Virus record (IMG/VR): IMGVR_UViG_3300025133_000246
Coordinates: 1 to 41,736 of that record
Direction: 5' to 3' (one strand)
DNA: 41,736 bases
From: a virus
Position 1 is the first letter of the stretch. Every line of letters begins with the position of its first letter. A model generated the notes under the pieces. The model was given only the letters and a program-made list of their open reading frames with translations. It was not told the origin of the DNA and ran no database searches. Of the stretch, positions 377 through 33,860 are shown piece after piece. The translations under genes and the position numbers were made by a program.

Positions 377-655
377 TCAGGCTGGTTCGCCCATGACGCT
401 TTGACCTTGACCAGCACCCTGCTTATCAAGGATGTCAAGAGTAGCATCAAGGAAATCGGGCCAGTCATCATCCATGAGACCAGCTTCACCCATTGCAGTG
501 TAGACAAGATCTTCGACCTCAGCGTCCATCATGCTGTTGAGTGAGTTACCGTGCTCTGCTGAAATCTGGGCTGCAAGCTCTTCGGGTGAACCTGACGAGA
601 TGCTCGTGATTTCTGCGAGAATCATCTTTCGCAACGCTGAGCGTGTGAGCTTCAT
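377..655 (-). CDS. Small protein with putative capsid-targeting N-terminus (MKLTR family, copy 3)
   Basis: A 92-residue acidic protein of unknown function. It begins MKLTRSALRKMILAE, a basic amphipathic leader with a potential gp21-type protease site, L-A-E, ending at residue 15. The rest is acidic and helical in character (DAEVEDLV, DDDWPDFLDATLDIL). The start overlaps the stop of the previous small gene (ATGA), which suggests translational coupling. It is the last of three tandem small genes sharing the leader, between the second tail sheath gene and the tail tube gene. By analogy with T4 internal proteins it may be packaged in the head and processed there. That role is inference; no enzymatic motif is visible. 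Confidence 0.75.
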   Translation of the reverse strand: MKLTRSALRKMILAEITSISSGSPEELAAQISAEHGNSLNSMMDAEVEDLVYTAMGEAGLMDDDWPDFLDATLDILDKQGAGQGQSVMGEPA

Positions 656-945
656 TCGTATTCACCAGCAGCACCCGAAAGTGCGAGACGGCGAGCTGGA
701 GCATCTCGCTCTTCATCGTAGACATCCATGCCTTCACGGTCATCAGCAAAATCCTGGAGTGATCCTTCGACCTCTCCCATGACAAGCGAGCGCATGTCTC
801 TAACTTCGTAGCCCTTTGAGCTCAATACAGCGAAAAGAGAATCAAGCGCTCGATTCAAATCTTCAACGGCAGACTGCTGTGAACTCTCTAGAAGACGCAT
901 CTCCTGGAGAATAGCACGTCGCAGACTATTTCGTGTAAGCTTCAT
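652..945 (-). CDS. Small protein with putative capsid-targeting N-terminus (MKLTR family, copy 2)
   Basis: A 97-residue protein of unknown function. Its leader MKLTRNSLRRAILQE ends in a potential L-Q-E protease site at residue 15. The middle holds the module SLFAVLSSKGYEVRDMRSLV, which aligns with copies in the neighbouring small gene and in the small gene at 27876-28127, so these proteins are paralogues beyond the leader. Residues 81-95 (DAPARRLALSGAAGE) are encoded by a 46-nt sequence also present in frame inside the upstream tail sheath gene, apparently inserted at the C-terminus of this protein. The stop overlaps the next gene's ATG. Confidence 0.75.
   Translation of the reverse strand: MKLTRNSLRRAILQEMRLLESSQQSAVEDLNRALDSLFAVLSSKGYEVRDMRSLVMGEVEGSLQDFADDREGMDVYDEERDAPARRLALSGAAGEYE
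660..705. repeat. 46-nt in-frame repeat, copy A
   Basis: This stretch is identical to 5838-5883 at 45 of 46 positions. Both copies are read in the same frame and give DAPARRLALSGA(A/S)GE. The sequence has partial inverted symmetry: an inner GCAC/GTGC arm around CCGAAA and an outer CCAGC/GCTGG arm. Here it forms the last codons of a small MKLTR-family gene. Confidence 0.9.
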
Positions 946-952
946 GAGAATC

Positions 953-1231
953 TCAGTAGATGCTATCGAAAACGTGACCTACACCTTCCATGATGATGGA
1001 ACGCACAATGTCATGATCTTCGATTCCAGCGGCGTACATGTCGTCAGCAAGTTCACGAAGAGCATTCTGTACTCCGTGATGCATCAACTCGTCACGAGCG
1101 AGCAAGCCAGCGTCGCCTTCGTCAGCTGCAGCCTCTTCCCATGATGCTGACGGAACACCAGGAGGACCTTCATTGAGTGACTTCATCTCTCTCAAGATCA
1201 GAGAGCGAAGGGATTCACGTGTAAGCTTCAT
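953..1231 (-). CDS. Small protein with putative capsid-targeting N-terminus (MKLTR family, copy 1)
   Basis: A 92-residue protein of unknown function. Its start codon overlaps the stop of the sheath gene (TAATG), so it is probably translated by coupling. It begins MKLTRESLRSLILRE, with a potential L-R-E protease site at residue 15. The C-terminal half contains GIEDHDIVRSIIMEGVGHVF, which aligns with the G-x(4)-D-(I/M)-R-x-(L/I)-(I/V) module of the next small gene and of the gene at 27876-28127. Read together, the three tandem genes look like duplicated internal-head or structural accessory proteins. The position next to tail genes does not itself support a head role. Confidence 0.75.
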   Translation of the reverse strand: MKLTRESLRSLILREMKSLNEGPPGVPSASWEEAAADEGDAGLLARDELMHHGVQNALRELADDMYAAGIEDHDIVRSIIMEGVGHVFDSIY

Positions 1232-4224
1232 TAGACAACCGCACCTGCGTTGGTGATGACGAAGTCCAGGGACACGAACTCGATGGTGCGGGTCGGCTGG
1301 AGGAAGATCTTTCCACGAATCGTGTTGTTTTCCACATCGGCCTGAGTGGTCGTTGTGGTATCAATCTTGACTCGGAAGCGCTCAACGCCCTGGAGCTCTT
1401 GGATGCGCTGGAGGCGTGGGCGAACCAGTGCTTCAAAGCGTGCCAGTGTGCTGTCTCGGTTAGGCTCAAAGATGACCCGCCTGGAGAGCATCTTAACCTG
1501 ACGACGAATCTCGATTAGGAGACGACGTACGTTGACACGGTCAAGTGCACTCTGCGTTGCGAGAAGCGTCTTCTGACCCCAAACGACCGGACCCTTAGTT
1601 CCAGGGAACGTTGCGATTGGGTTGATCTTGGCGTCGTAGAGGACATCCAAGTTCTTTCGTCCCAGCGAAACAACAGTCTCGAGAGTAGAGTCCAGTGCTC
1701 CTCGGTTGAAGCCTGCAGGTGCGAACCACGGGTGAGCAACCTTGTCATTCAGAGACATGGCACCCAGGACAACAACCGAAGGCGGAACCTGGACATTTGT
1801 CAGCGTGAACGGGTCAGTGACGACAGCATCTGGGAAGTATGCCGCAGCGAAGCTGGTGTCCAGGTTACGGCTTGTGAAAGCCGCCGCGGTGTTCGTTACG
1901 CTAATGTCCTGGATAGCTGACGAGGTAACCACACTGTCAACAGTGTCTCGCTCATCGATGTCCATGATGTACAGAGCGTCGAATCGAGTCTCAACGACAT
2001 CGATCGCCTTGTCCGAAACCACGCTGTGACGAATACCTGGGACTGCAAGAAGCTTGATGTCAACCTCTGAAGTCTCACCCATGATGTCGAGAGCCTTCTT
2101 GAAGGCCATGACAGTAGGACCGTCATCCTGTCCCTGGTTCGCGTCATCCATCTCCTGGATGATTGCTGCATTAACCAGATCTGTCTTGTTCGGGTCAAAG
2201 ATATTGACTCCGTCGAATCCGCCCTGGATGATGAAGGAGAACTTAGCGTAGGTCTTGACAGTTAGGTCGCCGAAGTCATCGTTAACGCTAAGCGCACGAG
2301 TCTTGTTTGCAGCGTTAGCTGAGATGTTGCCCTGTCGGACGTACGAGGCGGATGCCCACTCCTTTGCATCGGCGAGTCCGTTGGAGCCAGTACGAACCTG
2401 CACATTCTCGAGAGAGAATGAGTTGTTGTTGAACCGGTCGCTATCAAGAACCGTTCCGCCAACGTCAGCTGTTCCAGCGTTATCACCAACCCACGGCGAC
2501 TGCCAAGTGGTGTGGAACTTCGGCTGGTACTTCGTGTAAGATGCAATCGTTGGATCGGGAACCAGCGAAGAGTTAGGTTCAGTGATGCTGGTCTTCCGCT
2601 CGAACTGCACTCCCCAGTAGAAGTTGCTGTTCTCTGTGAGCTTGGGATCCACACCCGTTGCAATGCTCTCTCGGAAAGGAACCGGAGGCTCAACCAGACG
2701 AGTGAACGCAAGGTTTGCACCTGCGTTGAACTGGTCAGTCACACCTGCAATGGTCGTCATGATAGACGAGCCAGAAGTTGCCAAGTGGTGAGGGCCGCGG
2801 AATCCGACGGGAAGCGCGGTTGAATCAACCTCAGCATCTTCAACTGACTGATTCATCTCAACTCGAACGAGTGCAGAGAGGTTCGGGAAGCTTCCCTCAA
2901 GAACTAGACGCTGACCGTCCGAATTCTTGTCGAAGTCCCAGTACCAATACTGGTCGCCAATGATCTTAGCAACGTAACGCTCAGAGCTTGGGTTGAGGCT
3001 AAGCTTGAGGAAGGACTCGAGAATGACTGGATCATCATCGTTATCGTTGAAGTCTCTGACTAGCAGGTCGAAGGTTCCGTAAAGATCCGTCTCAGAAGTA
3101 GACTTAGCCACGTTCCGAATGGAGATCTTGAATCTCGTGTTAGCAAAAGCGCCGTCGGACAAGGCGTGAACCTTGAACAGATTGACTGGGCTTCCACCGA
3201 ACTTCTGCGAAGTAACGTAAGGCGAGAACGGCGTGATGTACCGATCTTCGAAGCTCTCAAAGTTGGGAATCGTGGTTGAACCCACGTTGCGTGCCAACGA
3301 TGATGTCAGAAGGAAGGCAATCGGGTGGCGACCGCCATCGATTCCAGCACTTGATGTAATGATGCCCGAGCCAGTCGGTGCAGCAATCACAGGGTGAACG
3401 TCGTACTGCGAGTAGAGGTAGTGCCCCGCTGACTCAATGAGCTCTGGATCTGTGTTGAGGATGTTTCCGAAGTAGTTCGGTGCATCCACATCAAAGGAGC
3501 AAGTGAGCAGGTTGGGATACTGGTTCGTGTTGATGTGACCATTCAGAAGGATGACAAAGTCCTGCTGAGCCGAGGTCAAATCTACTGCTCCCGTCATTGC
3601 ACCCTGAGGACCCACAGCAGTGGCTGCTACAGTGTTCGAGGGCTGAGCCGACGGTGTGTTGTTTCCGGAGAGCATTGGAACGACACCCGACGGTGCCATG
3701 ATGACTGCTCGAAGGATGGGCTGTGCAATGTTCTCACCCGAGTTCTGGATGCCAGAAGTCGAGAAGATATCTGATCCTGCAGACTCAGACATGAAGCAGC
3801 CGAGGAAGTGAGTACGACCTGGGATGCCGTTGTTCACTGCCTTGCTGTTTCGTGCAAGAATACCCGAGTCCTGCACCTGCTGGGCGCCGACGACGAAGCC
3901 GGAACGAGTTACCTTTCCAGTGTTATTACCCGATGAAGTACGCTTGGTGCCATCACCAGCACCGAGCACTCGCATGTAGGTGACAGACTGGGCGTTACTC
4001 AGCCATTCGATAACAGCAAGTGGACCAAACTTCTCACCATCAGACTCACCAAACTTGGACACGAAGTCCTGTGTTGTGCCGAGTGTGACAGGAACGAAAG
4101 CGGGCCCCTGATTTGCGGTTCCGATAATTCCTGCAGGAACACCCGTGGGGGCAACATTCGCGGGACCGCTTAGGTCGATCTCACGAGCGCTTACACCAGG
4201 GCTGCGAAAAGTCAGTTCAGACAT
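1231..4224 (-). CDS. gp18: Tail sheath protein, gp18-like, paralogue B
   Basis: A 997-residue contractile tail sheath protein. The N-terminus (FRSPGVSAREIDLSG, then GVPAGIIGTANQGPAFVPV) and the C-terminal third (a WFAPAGFNRGALD segment, SALDRVNVRRLLIEIRR, PTRTIEFVSLDFVITN) are the conserved sheath core. The middle of roughly 500 residues is a variable insertion region. It is longer than T4 gp18 (659 residues). The gene directly upstream (4261-7326) is a clear paralogue with the same ends. GGAG lies just before the ATG and an ATAGGTA promoter-like element 27 nt upstream. Three small MKLTR genes follow and probably share its transcript. Confidence 0.92.
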   Translation of the reverse strand: MSELTFRSPGVSAREIDLSGPANVAPTGVPAGIIGTANQGPAFVPVTLGTTQDFVSKFGESDGEKFGPLAVIEWLSNAQSVTYMRVLGAGDGTKRTSSGNNTGKVTRSGFVVGAQQVQDSGILARNSKAVNNGIPGRTHFLGCFMSESAGSDIFSTSGIQNSGENIAQPILRAVIMAPSGVVPMLSGNNTPSAQPSNTVAATAVGPQGAMTGAVDLTSAQQDFVILLNGHINTNQYPNLLTCSFDVDAPNYFGNILNTDPELIESAGHYLYSQYDVHPVIAAPTGSGIITSSAGIDGGRHPIAFLLTSSLARNVGSTTIPNFESFEDRYITPFSPYVTSQKFGGSPVNLFKVHALSDGAFANTRFKISIRNVAKSTSETDLYGTFDLLVRDFNDNDDDPVILESFLKLSLNPSSERYVAKIIGDQYWYWDFDKNSDGQRLVLEGSFPNLSALVRVEMNQSVEDAEVDSTALPVGFRGPHHLATSGSSIMTTIAGVTDQFNAGANLAFTRLVEPPVPFRESIATGVDPKLTENSNFYWGVQFERKTSITEPNSSLVPDPTIASYTKYQPKFHTTWQSPWVGDNAGTADVGGTVLDSDRFNNNSFSLENVQVRTGSNGLADAKEWASASYVRQGNISANAANKTRALSVNDDFGDLTVKTYAKFSFIIQGGFDGVNIFDPNKTDLVNAAIIQEMDDANQGQDDGPTVMAFKKALDIMGETSEVDIKLLAVPGIRHSVVSDKAIDVVETRFDALYIMDIDERDTVDSVVTSSAIQDISVTNTAAAFTSRNLDTSFAAAYFPDAVVTDPFTLTNVQVPPSVVVLGAMSLNDKVAHPWFAPAGFNRGALDSTLETVVSLGRKNLDVLYDAKINPIATFPGTKGPVVWGQKTLLATQSALDRVNVRRLLIEIRRQVKMLSRRVIFEPNRDSTLARFEALVRPRLQRIQELQGVERFRVKIDTTTTTQADVENNTIRGKIFLQPTRTIEFVSLDFVITNAGAVV

Positions 4225-4250
4225 TGCTCACTGTCTCCATAGGTCGTGTG

Positions 4251-4258
4251 TACCTATC
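4251..4258 (-). promoter_or_regulatory. Putative late promoter, ATAGGTA, for sheath B
   Basis: Reads GATAGGTA on the minus strand, 27 nt upstream of the sheath B start, in the 36-nt gap between the two sheath genes. It fits the ATASKTA consensus of the other late-gene gaps. It would allow the second sheath to be expressed independently of the first. Confidence 0.5.
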
Positions 4259-4260
4259 CG

Positions 4261-7200
4261 TCACTCGAAGCTCACGCCGGAGTTCGTGATGATGAAGTCA
4301 ACTGCGACGAATTCCACCGTCCTGGTCGGAACAACGACAATGCGTCCGTTCAGACGGTTCGCCTCGATGTCTTCATCGGTATTGTTGGTTGAATCAACGA
4401 CCACCTTGAACGATTCCACACCCGCCTGCGTCTGGACAAGTGCCAAAAGAGGTGTGATTTGGGAAACGAACTTCTGTCGTGTAGCTGCTGTGTTCTGTTC
4501 GAAGACGAATCGCTGTGCGATGTCTCCAACGAGACGCTTAATCTCAAGCATGAGACGTCGGACGTTGACTCTGTCGAGTGCAGAACGTGCCTGCTGCAGA
4601 GTCTTCTGCCCGAAGATAACGAAGCCTTCTCGTGGGAAAGTAGCAATAGGGTTGATTCGTGTGTCGTAGAGGACGTCGCGATCGTTAGCAGTCAGTCGAA
4701 CATCAACATTGGCGACAAAGTCAAGGCTACCACGGTTGAAGCCAGCGGGTGCGAACCAAGGGTAGCTGCTCTTGTCATTGAATGCCAATGCGGCGATAGC
4801 AGCGATAGATGCCGGAACCGTTACTCGACGAGTGTTGACCGGGTCGTCAATCTGAACATCGGGGAAGAATGCCGCTGCGTAGCTGTTGTCTACTGCACGA
4901 CTGTCGAAGGCCTCAGACGTCTTTCGAACATCAGGCTTAGCAACACTGTTGTCAAAGAGGCGAGTGTTGTCTTCGTCGTACTCTGCAATATCCATCAAGT
5001 AGATGGCCTTCGAGTACTCACGAGTCTTAGTCGCAGCGTAATCGGTGACAAAGGAGTCACGAATACCAGGGATGGCGAGAATGTTCGTGTTGACCACAAA
5101 CGGATCCGTCATCAAGCGTGCAGCAGTTCGGTATGCGAACACTGTCTGGTTCGTCTTTCCAGTTCCGTTGACGTTAGTCGCAAGGCCAGGCGAGACGAAG
5201 GACGATGCAGCAGCACCACCAGTATCTGAGGAAGCTGCAAGGTCATTCATCCTGGCCGCATCACGGTCAAGCATGTTGACGCCGTCGAAGCCACCGTACA
5301 TGAATGTGCTGAACTTTGCGTATTCTGAGAACCTGTTGAAGTCGACGGACGACGTCTGGTTGACAAGAGTTGCATAAGTGATTCGGGACGAAAGCGTACC
5401 GTCTGTCACTGTGTAGTCAACAGGATCCACTACTGCGTTTCGGATGTATGCCATCTCCAGGATGTGGTCCTTGACACCGCCCGTGAGAGCAGTGACCGCA
5501 TCGTTGGAGAAAGCTACGCGAGCGAGAGTGAACTTGTTGTTACCGAAGGCATCAGCACCAGATCCAGTAACCAGAACATCCATCTTCTCGATGCCGAGGA
5601 ACTTACCGTAGGCTTCGACCAGCTTGTTCTTTGCAGAACCGATGTTCGGGTTGTAGATTGAGTTAGAAGTAGTTCCCGTAAGCGGAAGCCTTTCGAACTT
5701 GACACCCCAGTGGAAACGACCATCAACGATCTCGCCGACACCAGGATTTCCACTAAAGCCACCAGCAGTTGCAACCTGTCCCTTAGTGATCTTGAATCGC
5801 ATAGGAAGGGGTGGAACCACAGAGCCCGTCAGGACCGATTCACCAGAAGCACCCGAAAGTGCGAGACGGCGAGCTGGAGCATCACCTTCGCTAGCTAGAA
5901 CGGTGGCAGTGTCAGTAAGTGTGTCCGAAGTCTTCAAGACGGGGACGCCACGGAATCCGAATGGAAGTGCCTTAGCAGGGACGAGACCCTTCTCAACAGC
6001 AGGATTCATGACGATTCTTAGACGCTGTGACTTGTTCGGGTAGAGACCCTGAACAATCAGGCGACGTTCATCATCATCTGTTGCATCGAAGTTGAAGTAG
6101 ACCTTCTTGTCACCCACTGCCTTCGCAATGTAGTTCTCAGCCCGCGGGTTGAGAGACACCTGCGGGAAGGACTCGAGAACCTCAGGATTTGTGTCCTGGT
6201 CATCGTAAGTTCGGACGTTGACGGTGAAAGTACCGTACTCGTCAGCAGGGTTAGTCGAACCGCGAAGATCTCGGATAGAAACCTTGATCTTGGTGTTCGA
6301 GTATGCGCCGTCATCGAGGGCTTCGAAGTGGAAGAGGTCGTACTCAGTTCCACCGAAAGGCTGGGAGATGATTGCGGGTGTCCGAGGCGTTGTGTATCGA
6401 GTGTCAAATCGACCGTAAGCGTTTCGGAAGAGCTGTGCAGTATCGCCTGATGTGTCGGAGGTGAGTCCCGAACCAGAGACAACGGCAACGGTGCTTGCTT
6501 CTGTTGCGACAGTAGCCAACTCATCTTCGACTGCGAAGTCGGCGAAGAGGTAGTGCTCTTCGTTGATGAACTTCTCAGGATCCGTGTTGAGAATCTTTCC
6601 GATGTAATCTTCAAGATTCGGATCAAGTGAAGCTGTTAGAATACGAAGACCAACGTTACCGTCTGCGGTAGAGTATGCAGAAGTCGACGAAGAGATAACC
6701 AGCTTGAAGCGTCCGGCGGACGTAACTGTAGCAAGGTCATCTGCTGTGTCAGCATACGCCTCGCCAGTTCCGTTCAGGACCATGATGCGAGTCCCCGAAG
6801 GAACCAAGATCATTGCACGGACGAGATTGACGAAGCTGTCAACAGAGGTACCGTACGAGTCGTTGTCTGTGAAAGCAGTTGGGAATCCCACTGCCTCCGA
6901 TGCCGAGACAAAGTGGCGTGCTACAAGGAACTGCACTGCTCCCTGGTGTCGACCAGAAGCAACGTCAGCAGTTGTAGCAGTTCCTTCAATCTTGAAGCCA
7001 GCATTCGTCACAGTTCCCTGTGCGCGTGTCGTTTCAATCTCGGTGGTAGACTCATTCGAGCCTGCTCCGAGAACACGCATGTAGGTCACCGCCGTGCGAT
7101 GCTTCAAAAATTCTCGGACAGCATAGGGCCCGAACTTCTTCGGATCAAGTGTACCAAACTTGGACTGGAAATCTGGGAAGGAACCGACAGTCACAGGGAC

Positions 7201-7326
7201 AAAAGCAGGGCCCTTCTGGGACGTGCCGGCAATGCCCGCTGGAACTCCGACGGGGGACTGCTGACGTGAAGTCAGGTCAATCTCCTGTTCGAAGAACCCA
7301 GGGGATCGAAAAGTCTGCTCTGCCAT
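4261..7326 (-). CDS. gp18: Tail sheath protein, gp18-like, paralogue A
   Basis: A 1021-residue tail sheath protein. The N-terminus reads FRSPGFFEQEIDLT followed by GVPAGIAGTSQKGPAFVPV. The C-terminus carries SALDRVNVRRLMLEIKR and PTRTVEFVAVDFIITN, matching the downstream paralogue almost segment by segment. Between these lies a long variable domain where the two differ strongly. Residues 482-496 (DAPARRLALSGASGE) come from a 46-nt sequence shared with the small gene at 652-945 and absent from the paralogue at the equivalent place. SD AAGGAGA precedes the ATG, and an ATACGTA element lies 44 nt upstream. Either both proteins build one mixed sheath or one has another role; the sequence does not decide. 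Confidence 0.92.
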   Translation of the reverse strand: MAEQTFRSPGFFEQEIDLTSRQQSPVGVPAGIAGTSQKGPAFVPVTVGSFPDFQSKFGTLDPKKFGPYAVREFLKHRTAVTYMRVLGAGSNESTTEIETTRAQGTVTNAGFKIEGTATTADVASGRHQGAVQFLVARHFVSASEAVGFPTAFTDNDSYGTSVDSFVNLVRAMILVPSGTRIMVLNGTGEAYADTADDLATVTSAGRFKLVISSSTSAYSTADGNVGLRILTASLDPNLEDYIGKILNTDPEKFINEEHYLFADFAVEDELATVATEASTVAVVSGSGLTSDTSGDTAQLFRNAYGRFDTRYTTPRTPAIISQPFGGTEYDLFHFEALDDGAYSNTKIKVSIRDLRGSTNPADEYGTFTVNVRTYDDQDTNPEVLESFPQVSLNPRAENYIAKAVGDKKVYFNFDATDDDERRLIVQGLYPNKSQRLRIVMNPAVEKGLVPAKALPFGFRGVPVLKTSDTLTDTATVLASEGDAPARRLALSGASGESVLTGSVVPPLPMRFKITKGQVATAGGFSGNPGVGEIVDGRFHWGVKFERLPLTGTTSNSIYNPNIGSAKNKLVEAYGKFLGIEKMDVLVTGSGADAFGNNKFTLARVAFSNDAVTALTGGVKDHILEMAYIRNAVVDPVDYTVTDGTLSSRITYATLVNQTSSVDFNRFSEYAKFSTFMYGGFDGVNMLDRDAARMNDLAASSDTGGAAASSFVSPGLATNVNGTGKTNQTVFAYRTAARLMTDPFVVNTNILAIPGIRDSFVTDYAATKTREYSKAIYLMDIAEYDEDNTRLFDNSVAKPDVRKTSEAFDSRAVDNSYAAAFFPDVQIDDPVNTRRVTVPASIAAIAALAFNDKSSYPWFAPAGFNRGSLDFVANVDVRLTANDRDVLYDTRINPIATFPREGFVIFGQKTLQQARSALDRVNVRRLMLEIKRLVGDIAQRFVFEQNTAATRQKFVSQITPLLALVQTQAGVESFKVVVDSTNNTDEDIEANRLNGRIVVVPTRTVEFVAVDFIITNSGVSFE
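5838..5883. repeat. 46-nt in-frame repeat, copy B
   Basis: Second copy of the sequence at 660-705, with one mismatch (A for C at the tenth base of the plus strand). It encodes residues 482-496 of sheath A, inside a variable loop between conserved flanks (an ALPxGFRG segment before, a VxPPxPxR segment after). Sheath B lacks the sequence there. Confidence 0.9.
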
Positions 7327-27875: not shown

Positions 27876-28127
27876 TTACAGTGATTCGATATCATATCGA
27901 AGCGTCTCATCATCTTTTGATGATTTGACTTGCGTGATAAGCATTCTGATGTCACTGAGATCAAATCCTTTTTGCGACATGATCTTTTCGATCGACTCTA
28001 GATCCGAGACAGCAGCATTCATGTTCTCAAGAAAAGATGAATAACGGTCACTGGCAGTTGCAGCTGACGGGAATTCGACAATCTCTTCTTTGATGATCTG
28101 TCTCAGGAGTCGGCTGGTCAGTTTCAT
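27876..28127 (-). CDS. Small protein with putative capsid-targeting N-terminus (MKLTS family, copy 4)
   Basis: An 83-residue protein whose leader MKLTSRLLRQIIKEE matches the leaders of the three small genes at 377-1231, with an I-K-E site at residue 14. The segment MSQKGFDLSDIRMLITQV aligns with the SSKGYEVRDMRSLV module of the gene at 652-945, so this is a distant paralogue about 27 kb away, sitting among replication genes. AGAGGG precedes the ATG. If the leader directs proteins into the head, this one would be a packaged protein encoded outside the head cluster. Unknown function otherwise. Confidence 0.75.
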   Translation of the reverse strand: MKLTSRLLRQIIKEEIVEFPSAATASDRYSSFLENMNAAVSDLESIEKIMSQKGFDLSDIRMLITQVKSSKDDETLRYDIESL

Positions 28128-32487: not shown

Positions 32488-33210
32488 TCAGCTTGCGCTG
32501 GTCTTGCTGATCTGGACTTCAAAGTCCTTCGATGCACCAGACTGCAATCCAATGATGGAAAGAAAGGCCCTAATCGTCGTCTTGTCAGTGACGAGGCCTC
32601 GAATTGTAAAGAGTCTGTCAGGAATAGACTTGACTTCCACGTCTAGCGTGAGCTGAGAGCCTCCGACTGCTGTAGTCGTAGAATCTCTGGTCACGAGGTA
32701 GGAAGCAATGTTGTCCTGATCAATGTTGTCTGGTGAGATACCAGAAAGCTGCACGAGGTCGTTGGGAAGACGAACCAGGAACGCCTGATCTCTCAGCTCA
32801 ACATCAATTGAGTCTTCGGCAGTGATTGTCTGGGAGAGAATCACTCGACGTGACTTACCTGTTCCCGAGCGACCCATTGACAGTAGAGCCCCCGTCGAAT
32901 CTAGACCCTCACCCGTGAGAGTGAGTGACGGAAGACGCACGAGCGAAGGATTGGAGAGCGCAATCAATCGATACTTCTGTGCGAAATTCTGATTTGTCAG
33001 CGCTTCAAACACGGGAGTGTTCTTCTCGATCTTCTCCTTACCTACCGTGCGCCCAAACTTTCGAATGAGAGTGTAGTCTACTTCGTCATCTGACAAAGCA
33101 AACTTCACGATTGAAAAAGAACCGTCATTCTTAGACAAGAACTCTCGGCCGACATCGGTAAGCACCGAGTCAAGAAGAATGTTATTTGTTGAATGATCGA
33201 GGAAACCGAT
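32488..33210 (-). CDS. Tail structural protein whose start codon is displaced by homing endonuclease
   Basis: A 240-residue protein read from the conserved N-terminus (I)GFLDHSTNNILLDSVLTDVG, followed by GSFSIVKFALSDDEVDY and FGRTVGKEKIEKNTPVFEAL. In homologues I recall from marine T4-like phages this begins with Met-Gly-Phe-Leu-Asp; here the Met position is ATC at 33210. No ATG, GTG or TTG exists close by in frame. GGGTGGT six to seven nt upstream of the ATC could act as a ribosome site. Otherwise an in-frame ATG at 33300, inside the endonuclease gene, would add 30 foreign residues, or a GTG at VLTD would truncate it. Confidence 0.7.
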   Translation of the reverse strand: MGFLDHSTNNILLDSVLTDVGREFLSKNDGSFSIVKFALSDDEVDYTLIRKFGRTVGKEKIEKNTPVFEALTNQNFAQKYRLIALSNPSLVRLPSLTLTGEGLDSTGALLSMGRSGTGKSRRVILSQTITAEDSIDVELRDQAFLVRLPNDLVQLSGISPDNIDQDNIASYLVTRDSTTTAVGGSQLTLDVEVKSIPDRLFTIRGLVTDKTTIRAFLSIIGLQSGASKDFEVQISKTSAS

Positions 33211-33227
33211 GACACACCACCCGACGC

Positions 33228-33860
33228 TTACGCGTACTGCCAGGAAAAATTGTAGTAGTACGGACGCTCGCCACTTAGAACCCGACGGATTCCAGCACAT
33301 CGTCCTTCGATTGCTTCTGCTGCGCGCACGATCGATACATATTCAGCTACGAAGTTTCCATCGCGTGTGAACTGCTTGACCTTTCGACACACACCAGCAC
33401 GGTCTCGTCCTGACTCGGAGATTCGCTTGCGAATCTCAATTGAGTGGGTTCGCCCAAACATCGGATTATTTCTACCCATGCGAGCAGCAGACATTGCTGC
33501 TCGCTCTTCGGTCGACCAGTCGAGCTTGCCCCATGCCTTCCCAAAGTTGTGATTCTCGGGGCCGAAGCGAGCTCCGTTACCGTCTCCGCCTGGTGTGGCG
33601 TTGTAGCCGCGGCCGTGATACGTGTCGAGCTTCTGGATCCAGAAGATCTCACGCTCATTGAGCATGTCCAGCGAGTCACATGCTTCGAGAACCTCGCGAG
33701 TGAATGCGTCTGTGCCGTGCTTCTTGATTGCACGTGCTAGCGGAACGTCAGACGATAAGCTGGTAGCTACATGACCACGCCAGCGAACATCAAGCAGCTT
33801 CGTGGTCTTTCCCACGTAGCGCTTTCCGCTATTGCTGTTAGTGATCAGGTAGACAACCAT
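33228..33860 (-). CDS. GIY-YIG homing endonuclease, free-standing (Seg-like)
   Basis: A 210-residue homing endonuclease. The GIY-YIG nuclease domain spans about residues 2-90: VYLITN, RYVGKT with Tyr15, the Arg in RWRGH and the Glu in LNEREIFWIQ. Then come a NUMOD3-like segment (NNPMFGRTHSIEIRKRISES, about 131-150) and a NUMOD1/IENR1-like DNA-binding end (VKQFTRDGNFVAEYVSIVRAAEAIEG...). This is the layout of T4 Seg enzymes. GTGAGG precedes the ATG, and TATAGTTA lies 23 nt upstream. The gene lies in the promoter-to-start interval of a tail gene and seems to have taken over its promoter and ribosome site. Confidence 0.92.
   Translation of the reverse strand: MVVYLITNSNSGKRYVGKTTKLLDVRWRGHVATSLSSDVPLARAIKKHGTDAFTREVLEACDSLDMLNEREIFWIQKLDTYHGRGYNATPGGDGNGARFGPENHNFGKAWGKLDWSTEERAAMSAARMGRNNPMFGRTHSIEIRKRISESGRDRAGVCRKVKQFTRDGNFVAEYVSIVRAAEAIEGRCAGIRRVLSGERPYYYNFSWQYA

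Follow-up and report, generated by a model that had tools for sequence, protein, structure and literature searches.

The DNA that we analyzed (the window) is a whole virus record of 41,736 bases. The record is classed as linear, and such records are often fragments. On its minus strand lies a tandem pair of genes for tail sheath proteins of about 1000 amino acids (1231-7326). Sheath A (4261-7326; 1021 amino acids) and sheath B (1231-4224; 997 amino acids) both match the tail sheath family phrog_23 (E = 1.2e-59 and 1.1e-59, respectively), and the two paralogs are 38% identical. Many related contigs carry the same pair. Between sheath B and the tail tube gene is an accessory spot of 908 nt with three small genes of the MKLTR type, also on the minus strand: gene 1 (953-1231; 92 amino acids), which overlaps the stop codon of sheath B; gene 2 (652-945; 97 amino acids); and gene 3 (377-655; 92 amino acids), whose start codon overlaps the stop codon of gene 2 (ATGA). 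In L208, L231, and L205, which are close relatives, the gap between sheath B and the tube is 360-410 nt; most relatives have about 30-100 nt there and no gene.

Searches of Pfam and PHROGs gave no family for genes 1-3. Using phmmer, we found homologs of gene 3 among the small genes that follow sheath B in related phages (L006, E = 1.5e-10; L231, E = 6e-6; L063, E = 5e-4). (The homolog in L231, at 3360-3657, is apparently split by a frameshift in that contig.) Scans of IMG/VR with gene 2, with gene 2 and its paralog together, and with gene 3 returned no relatives.

Two places in this region share a nearly identical sequence. A repeat finder aligned positions 660-705, in gene 2, with positions 5838-5883, in sheath A, as a direct repeat that matches at 45 of 46 bases. 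Both copies are on the same strand and in frame with their ORFs (the 97-aa ORF at 652-945 and the 1021-aa ORF at 4261-7326), as an earlier note on this DNA had claimed, and on the minus strand both encode DAPARRLALSGA(A/S)GE. In sheath A, the segment comprises codons 482-496 (DAPARRLALSGASGE). In gene 2, it encodes the C-terminus (DAPARRLALSGAAGE) and ends 4 nt before the start codon of gene 3. The repeat is far beyond chance: its longest exact run, 36 nt, is also the longest exact repeat in the 41,736-base window, and in 30 order-2 Markov simulations the longest exact repeat averaged 15.7 nt, with a maximum of 21 nt. The earlier note also described the flanks as non-matching, and indeed the 30-, 60-, and 150-nt flanks of the two copies are no more similar than shuffled sequences. 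We consider the shared reading frame to be weak evidence, and unremarkable, because the 46-mer is open in two of its three forward frames.

To place the sheath copy in context, we gathered and aligned 80 relatives of sheath A from IMG/VR, and we used a separate alignment of 37 sequences to assess conservation. The closest homolog, L003 (79% identity), has ARRLALS where the repeat lies; the aligned sequence is G-TTTARRLALSSSSVN, of equal length, and the wider loop region reads GSFGTTTARRLALSSSSVN in L003 versus ASEGDAPARRLALSGASGES in sheath A. L004 and L005 (73% identity) have AGLGGSLARRMSIFNSAGES and AGLGGSLARRMSIYNSAGES, which align as G-GSLARRMS-SAGES, again with the length unchanged. A more distant homolog, L063 (69% identity), has GEGDVLSRRLAFAAEDAAGG. 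The codon alignment with these relatives contains no inserted block in sheath A, and the 37-sequence alignment shows at least 90% conservation of Arg487, which is within the repeat. An AlphaFold2 model built from that alignment has a mean pLDDT of 80.8. In this model, residues 471-500 form a lower-confidence stretch (block means of 58-65) with well-predicted regions on either side; most of the stretch is loop, and a short helix begins at residue 494. Because the relatives are equal in length and related in sequence, and because Arg487 is conserved, the 46-nt segment is evidently a native, variable, vertically inherited loop of sheath A that contains a conserved arginine. The location in a variable loop had been proposed before. 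The same note pointed out that sheath B lacks the peptide, which is true, but this is uninformative because the two sheaths share only 38% identity and the loop is variable.

Because the segment is native to sheath A, we take that gene as the donor and the C-terminal end of gene 2 as the recipient. The alignments strongly support this direction. A copy made in the opposite direction, with gene 2 as the donor, or a third source for both copies, would be in keeping with the segment's identity to the relatives, which is somewhat below the average for sheath A (4th-30th percentile of 15-codon windows). But the RR(L/M)(A/S) core and the equal length are already present in the relatives, and the neighboring codons of the loop are variable too, as expected of a variable loop. 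We therefore consider a reverse copy or a third source to be very unlikely.

The two copies also separated recently. Between sheath A and its ortholog in L003, 69% of 439 comparable four-fold degenerate sites differ; the repeat has 13 four-fold codons, and at none of them do the two copies differ in the third position. Given this contrast, the copy postdates the split from L003, and on the evidence of these sites the event is recent, as had been suspected from the high identity alone. The single base that differs between the copies is at a first codon position and exchanges Ala for Ser. L004 and L005 have Ala at this site and L003 has Ser, so the direction of the change is not polarised.

The recipient, gene 2, is a lineage-specific orphan accessory gene. 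Only its residues 1-23, which contain a tag that is common among the relatives, match other phages of the group; the body is an orphan, and the tail is apparently derived from the sheath. A search for gene 2 in phages with tblastn gave nothing informative. Within the window, gene 2 has a paralog of 83 amino acids (27876-28127, minus strand; 32% identity over 74 amino acids, E = 7e-07 in a single comparison), which has no C-terminal extension. Gene 1 has one distant tag-sharing counterpart in IMG/VR, in L239, without the peptide. AlphaFold2, run on the single sequence of gene 2 and hence only indicative (mean pLDDT of 64.8), predicts two helices and then a disordered tail (residues 77-97) that holds the copied peptide. 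A comparison of relatives with and without the segment, which the earlier note proposed, could be made on one side: relatives of sheath A carry a homologous segment of the same length, but gene 2 itself is missing from the relatives, and we found no relative that has gene 2 without the copy. The peptide is thus an old part of one family, sheath A, and not of the other (the earlier note had considered that it might be old in both).

A caveat is that the recipient junction is known from one metagenomic contig, so sheath reads might have been joined into gene 2 during assembly. Such an artefact would need two false junctions. Also, the copies differ by one base while both ORFs remain open, the sheath flanks are conserved in relatives on both sides of the segment, and the flank with gene 3 fits the gene neighborhood, as gene 3 has homologs in the relatives. 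We judge misassembly to be quite unlikely.

The earlier note proposed a micro-element that inserts in frame, comparable to the Rickettsia palindromic elements. Such an element would have inserted separately into both genes. The occurrence in two unrelated genes in the same frame, the near identity, and some inverted symmetry would fit such an element, and Rickettsia palindromic elements are likewise short pieces of DNA that lie in frame within unrelated genes. However, those elements measure about 150 bp, occur in large numbers, and are insertions (PMC10969869). They are palindromic and occur as families of many copies, and none of this is true of the 46-nt segment. The sheath copy is native and not an insertion (homologs of equal length have a recognizable ARRLA or RLA motif), and there are just two copies in 41.7 kb. 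The partial inverted symmetry is present, but RNA folding of the segment is no better than for dinucleotide shuffles (z = -0.18 to -0.59, or about -0.4), so there is no significant palindrome. On the same grounds we ruled out a hairpin function for the segment, and a search of Rfam gave no match.

Searching for further copies, as had been suggested, did not help the micro-element either. No exact 32-mer of the repeat was found in IMG/VR and no exact 25-mer in GTDB genomes; the peptide had no match by tblastn in a phage collection. Among all the related loci that we examined, the best near match to the 46-mer is 30 of 46 bases. Records very close to the window's own genome may be missing from these searches. 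Overall, an inserting micro-element is extremely unlikely, and the repeat gives no grounds for proposing a new class of mobile elements.

Instead, we think that the correct explanation is probably a single copying event, recent and short, in which sheath A served as the template and gene 2 received the copy at its 3' end. As a templated copy requires, a native donor is present on the same molecule, namely the vertically inherited segment of sheath A. About 46 nt of sheath A, from the variable loop around the conserved R-L-A core, would have been copied, with its orientation kept, into the 3' end of gene 2, which lies 5.2 kb downstream of the donor segment. The copy would have lengthened the disordered C-terminal tail of gene 2 so that it reaches the start codon of gene 3. 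The most likely mechanism would be two microhomology-primed template switches during replication or recombination; alternatively, the phage's own enzymes may have carried out a short-patch ectopic recombination. Once made, the copy may have persisted because it was in frame and harmless. It may also have been aided by a Shine-Dalgarno-like motif, GGTGA (662-666, minus strand), which is within the acquired copy and precedes the gene 3 ATG by 6 nt. This motif may serve gene 3, in which case the copy gave that gene a ribosome-binding site, or it may be a coincidence.

Two known processes resemble this event. In the FoSTeS/MMBIR model of template switching, which was described for rearrangements in human and E. 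coli (PMC2621351), a short stretch from a distant part of the same molecule enters a junction whose flanks lack long homology. This is similar to what we propose, and the flanks here also lack extended similarity. Short-patch ectopic gene conversion is also one-directional, spans tens of nucleotides, and leaves high identity with sharp ends, but the donor and the recipient here are not paralogs. A recent short gene conversion across 5 kb had been offered as an alternative to the micro-element. The recent transfer, from sheath A to gene 2, stands; "gene conversion" fits only loosely, because the two genes are not homologous.

We also considered whether the transfer was selected: a loop peptide from the sheath might allow a small protein to mimic or bind the sheath, the tube, or their assembly partners. 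Gene 2 is between sheath B and the tube, and the copy is in frame and includes the conserved arginine of the sheath. But the source stretch in the sheath is variable and modeled with lower confidence, a copy would stay in frame by chance about once in two or three times, and the related phages that we surveyed contain no second example. This makes a selected transfer unlikely. With a templated copy as the more plausible reading, the locus would be a clean, recent, and polarised case of a small phage gene that gained a new C-terminal tail encoded by 46 nt of copied DNA, the source being an essential structural gene. Such cases bear on how orphan phage genes obtain their sequence and on how phages patch small genes together.

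The survey covered repeats of at least 28 nt in 2.6 Mb of related loci, and it revealed no further case of an isolated copy shared by unrelated genes. The repeats that it did find are duplications of capsid and sheath genes, patches between paralogs, repeats within genes, and repeats of the N-terminal tags of small genes. One of the patches, 44 of 44 identical bases between adjacent paralogous genes in L051 (2641-2684 and 3124-3167), is likely a classical short gene conversion.

The tag itself, MK(I/L)T(K/R)xxLRxxIxEE, is common to small accessory genes across this group of phages. Genes with it are found in the window (377-655, 652-945, 953-1231, and 27876-28127), in L205 (at 1640 and 4068), and in L172, L186, L082, and L072. 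A literature search for the exact tag string found no paper. In the relatives, neighboring tag genes have 5' ends that are nearly identical over 44-60 nt, sometimes including the ribosome-binding site, while their bodies differ; in L208, for example, 2199-2258 and 2587-2646 match at 60 of 60 bases. Like the sheath-derived segment, these are short, nearly identical stretches across small genes with different bodies. Unlike it, they are always at the 5' end, are confined to one class of genes, and have no structural gene as their source. A broader idea is that recurrent copying of coding patches of 40-60 nt assembles the small, tag-bearing accessory genes of the virion or tail in this group. We regard this as speculative and rather doubtful. 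If true, it would amount to domain shuffling at a micro scale, with tags and a ribosome-binding site supplied at 5' ends and, in gene 2, a 3' end that received a sheath loop together with a ribosome-binding-like motif.

Elsewhere in the window, the ORF at 33228-33860 encodes what we take, by eye, to be a GIY-YIG-type endonuclease. The next ORF (32488-33300) starts within it, so that the two overlap.
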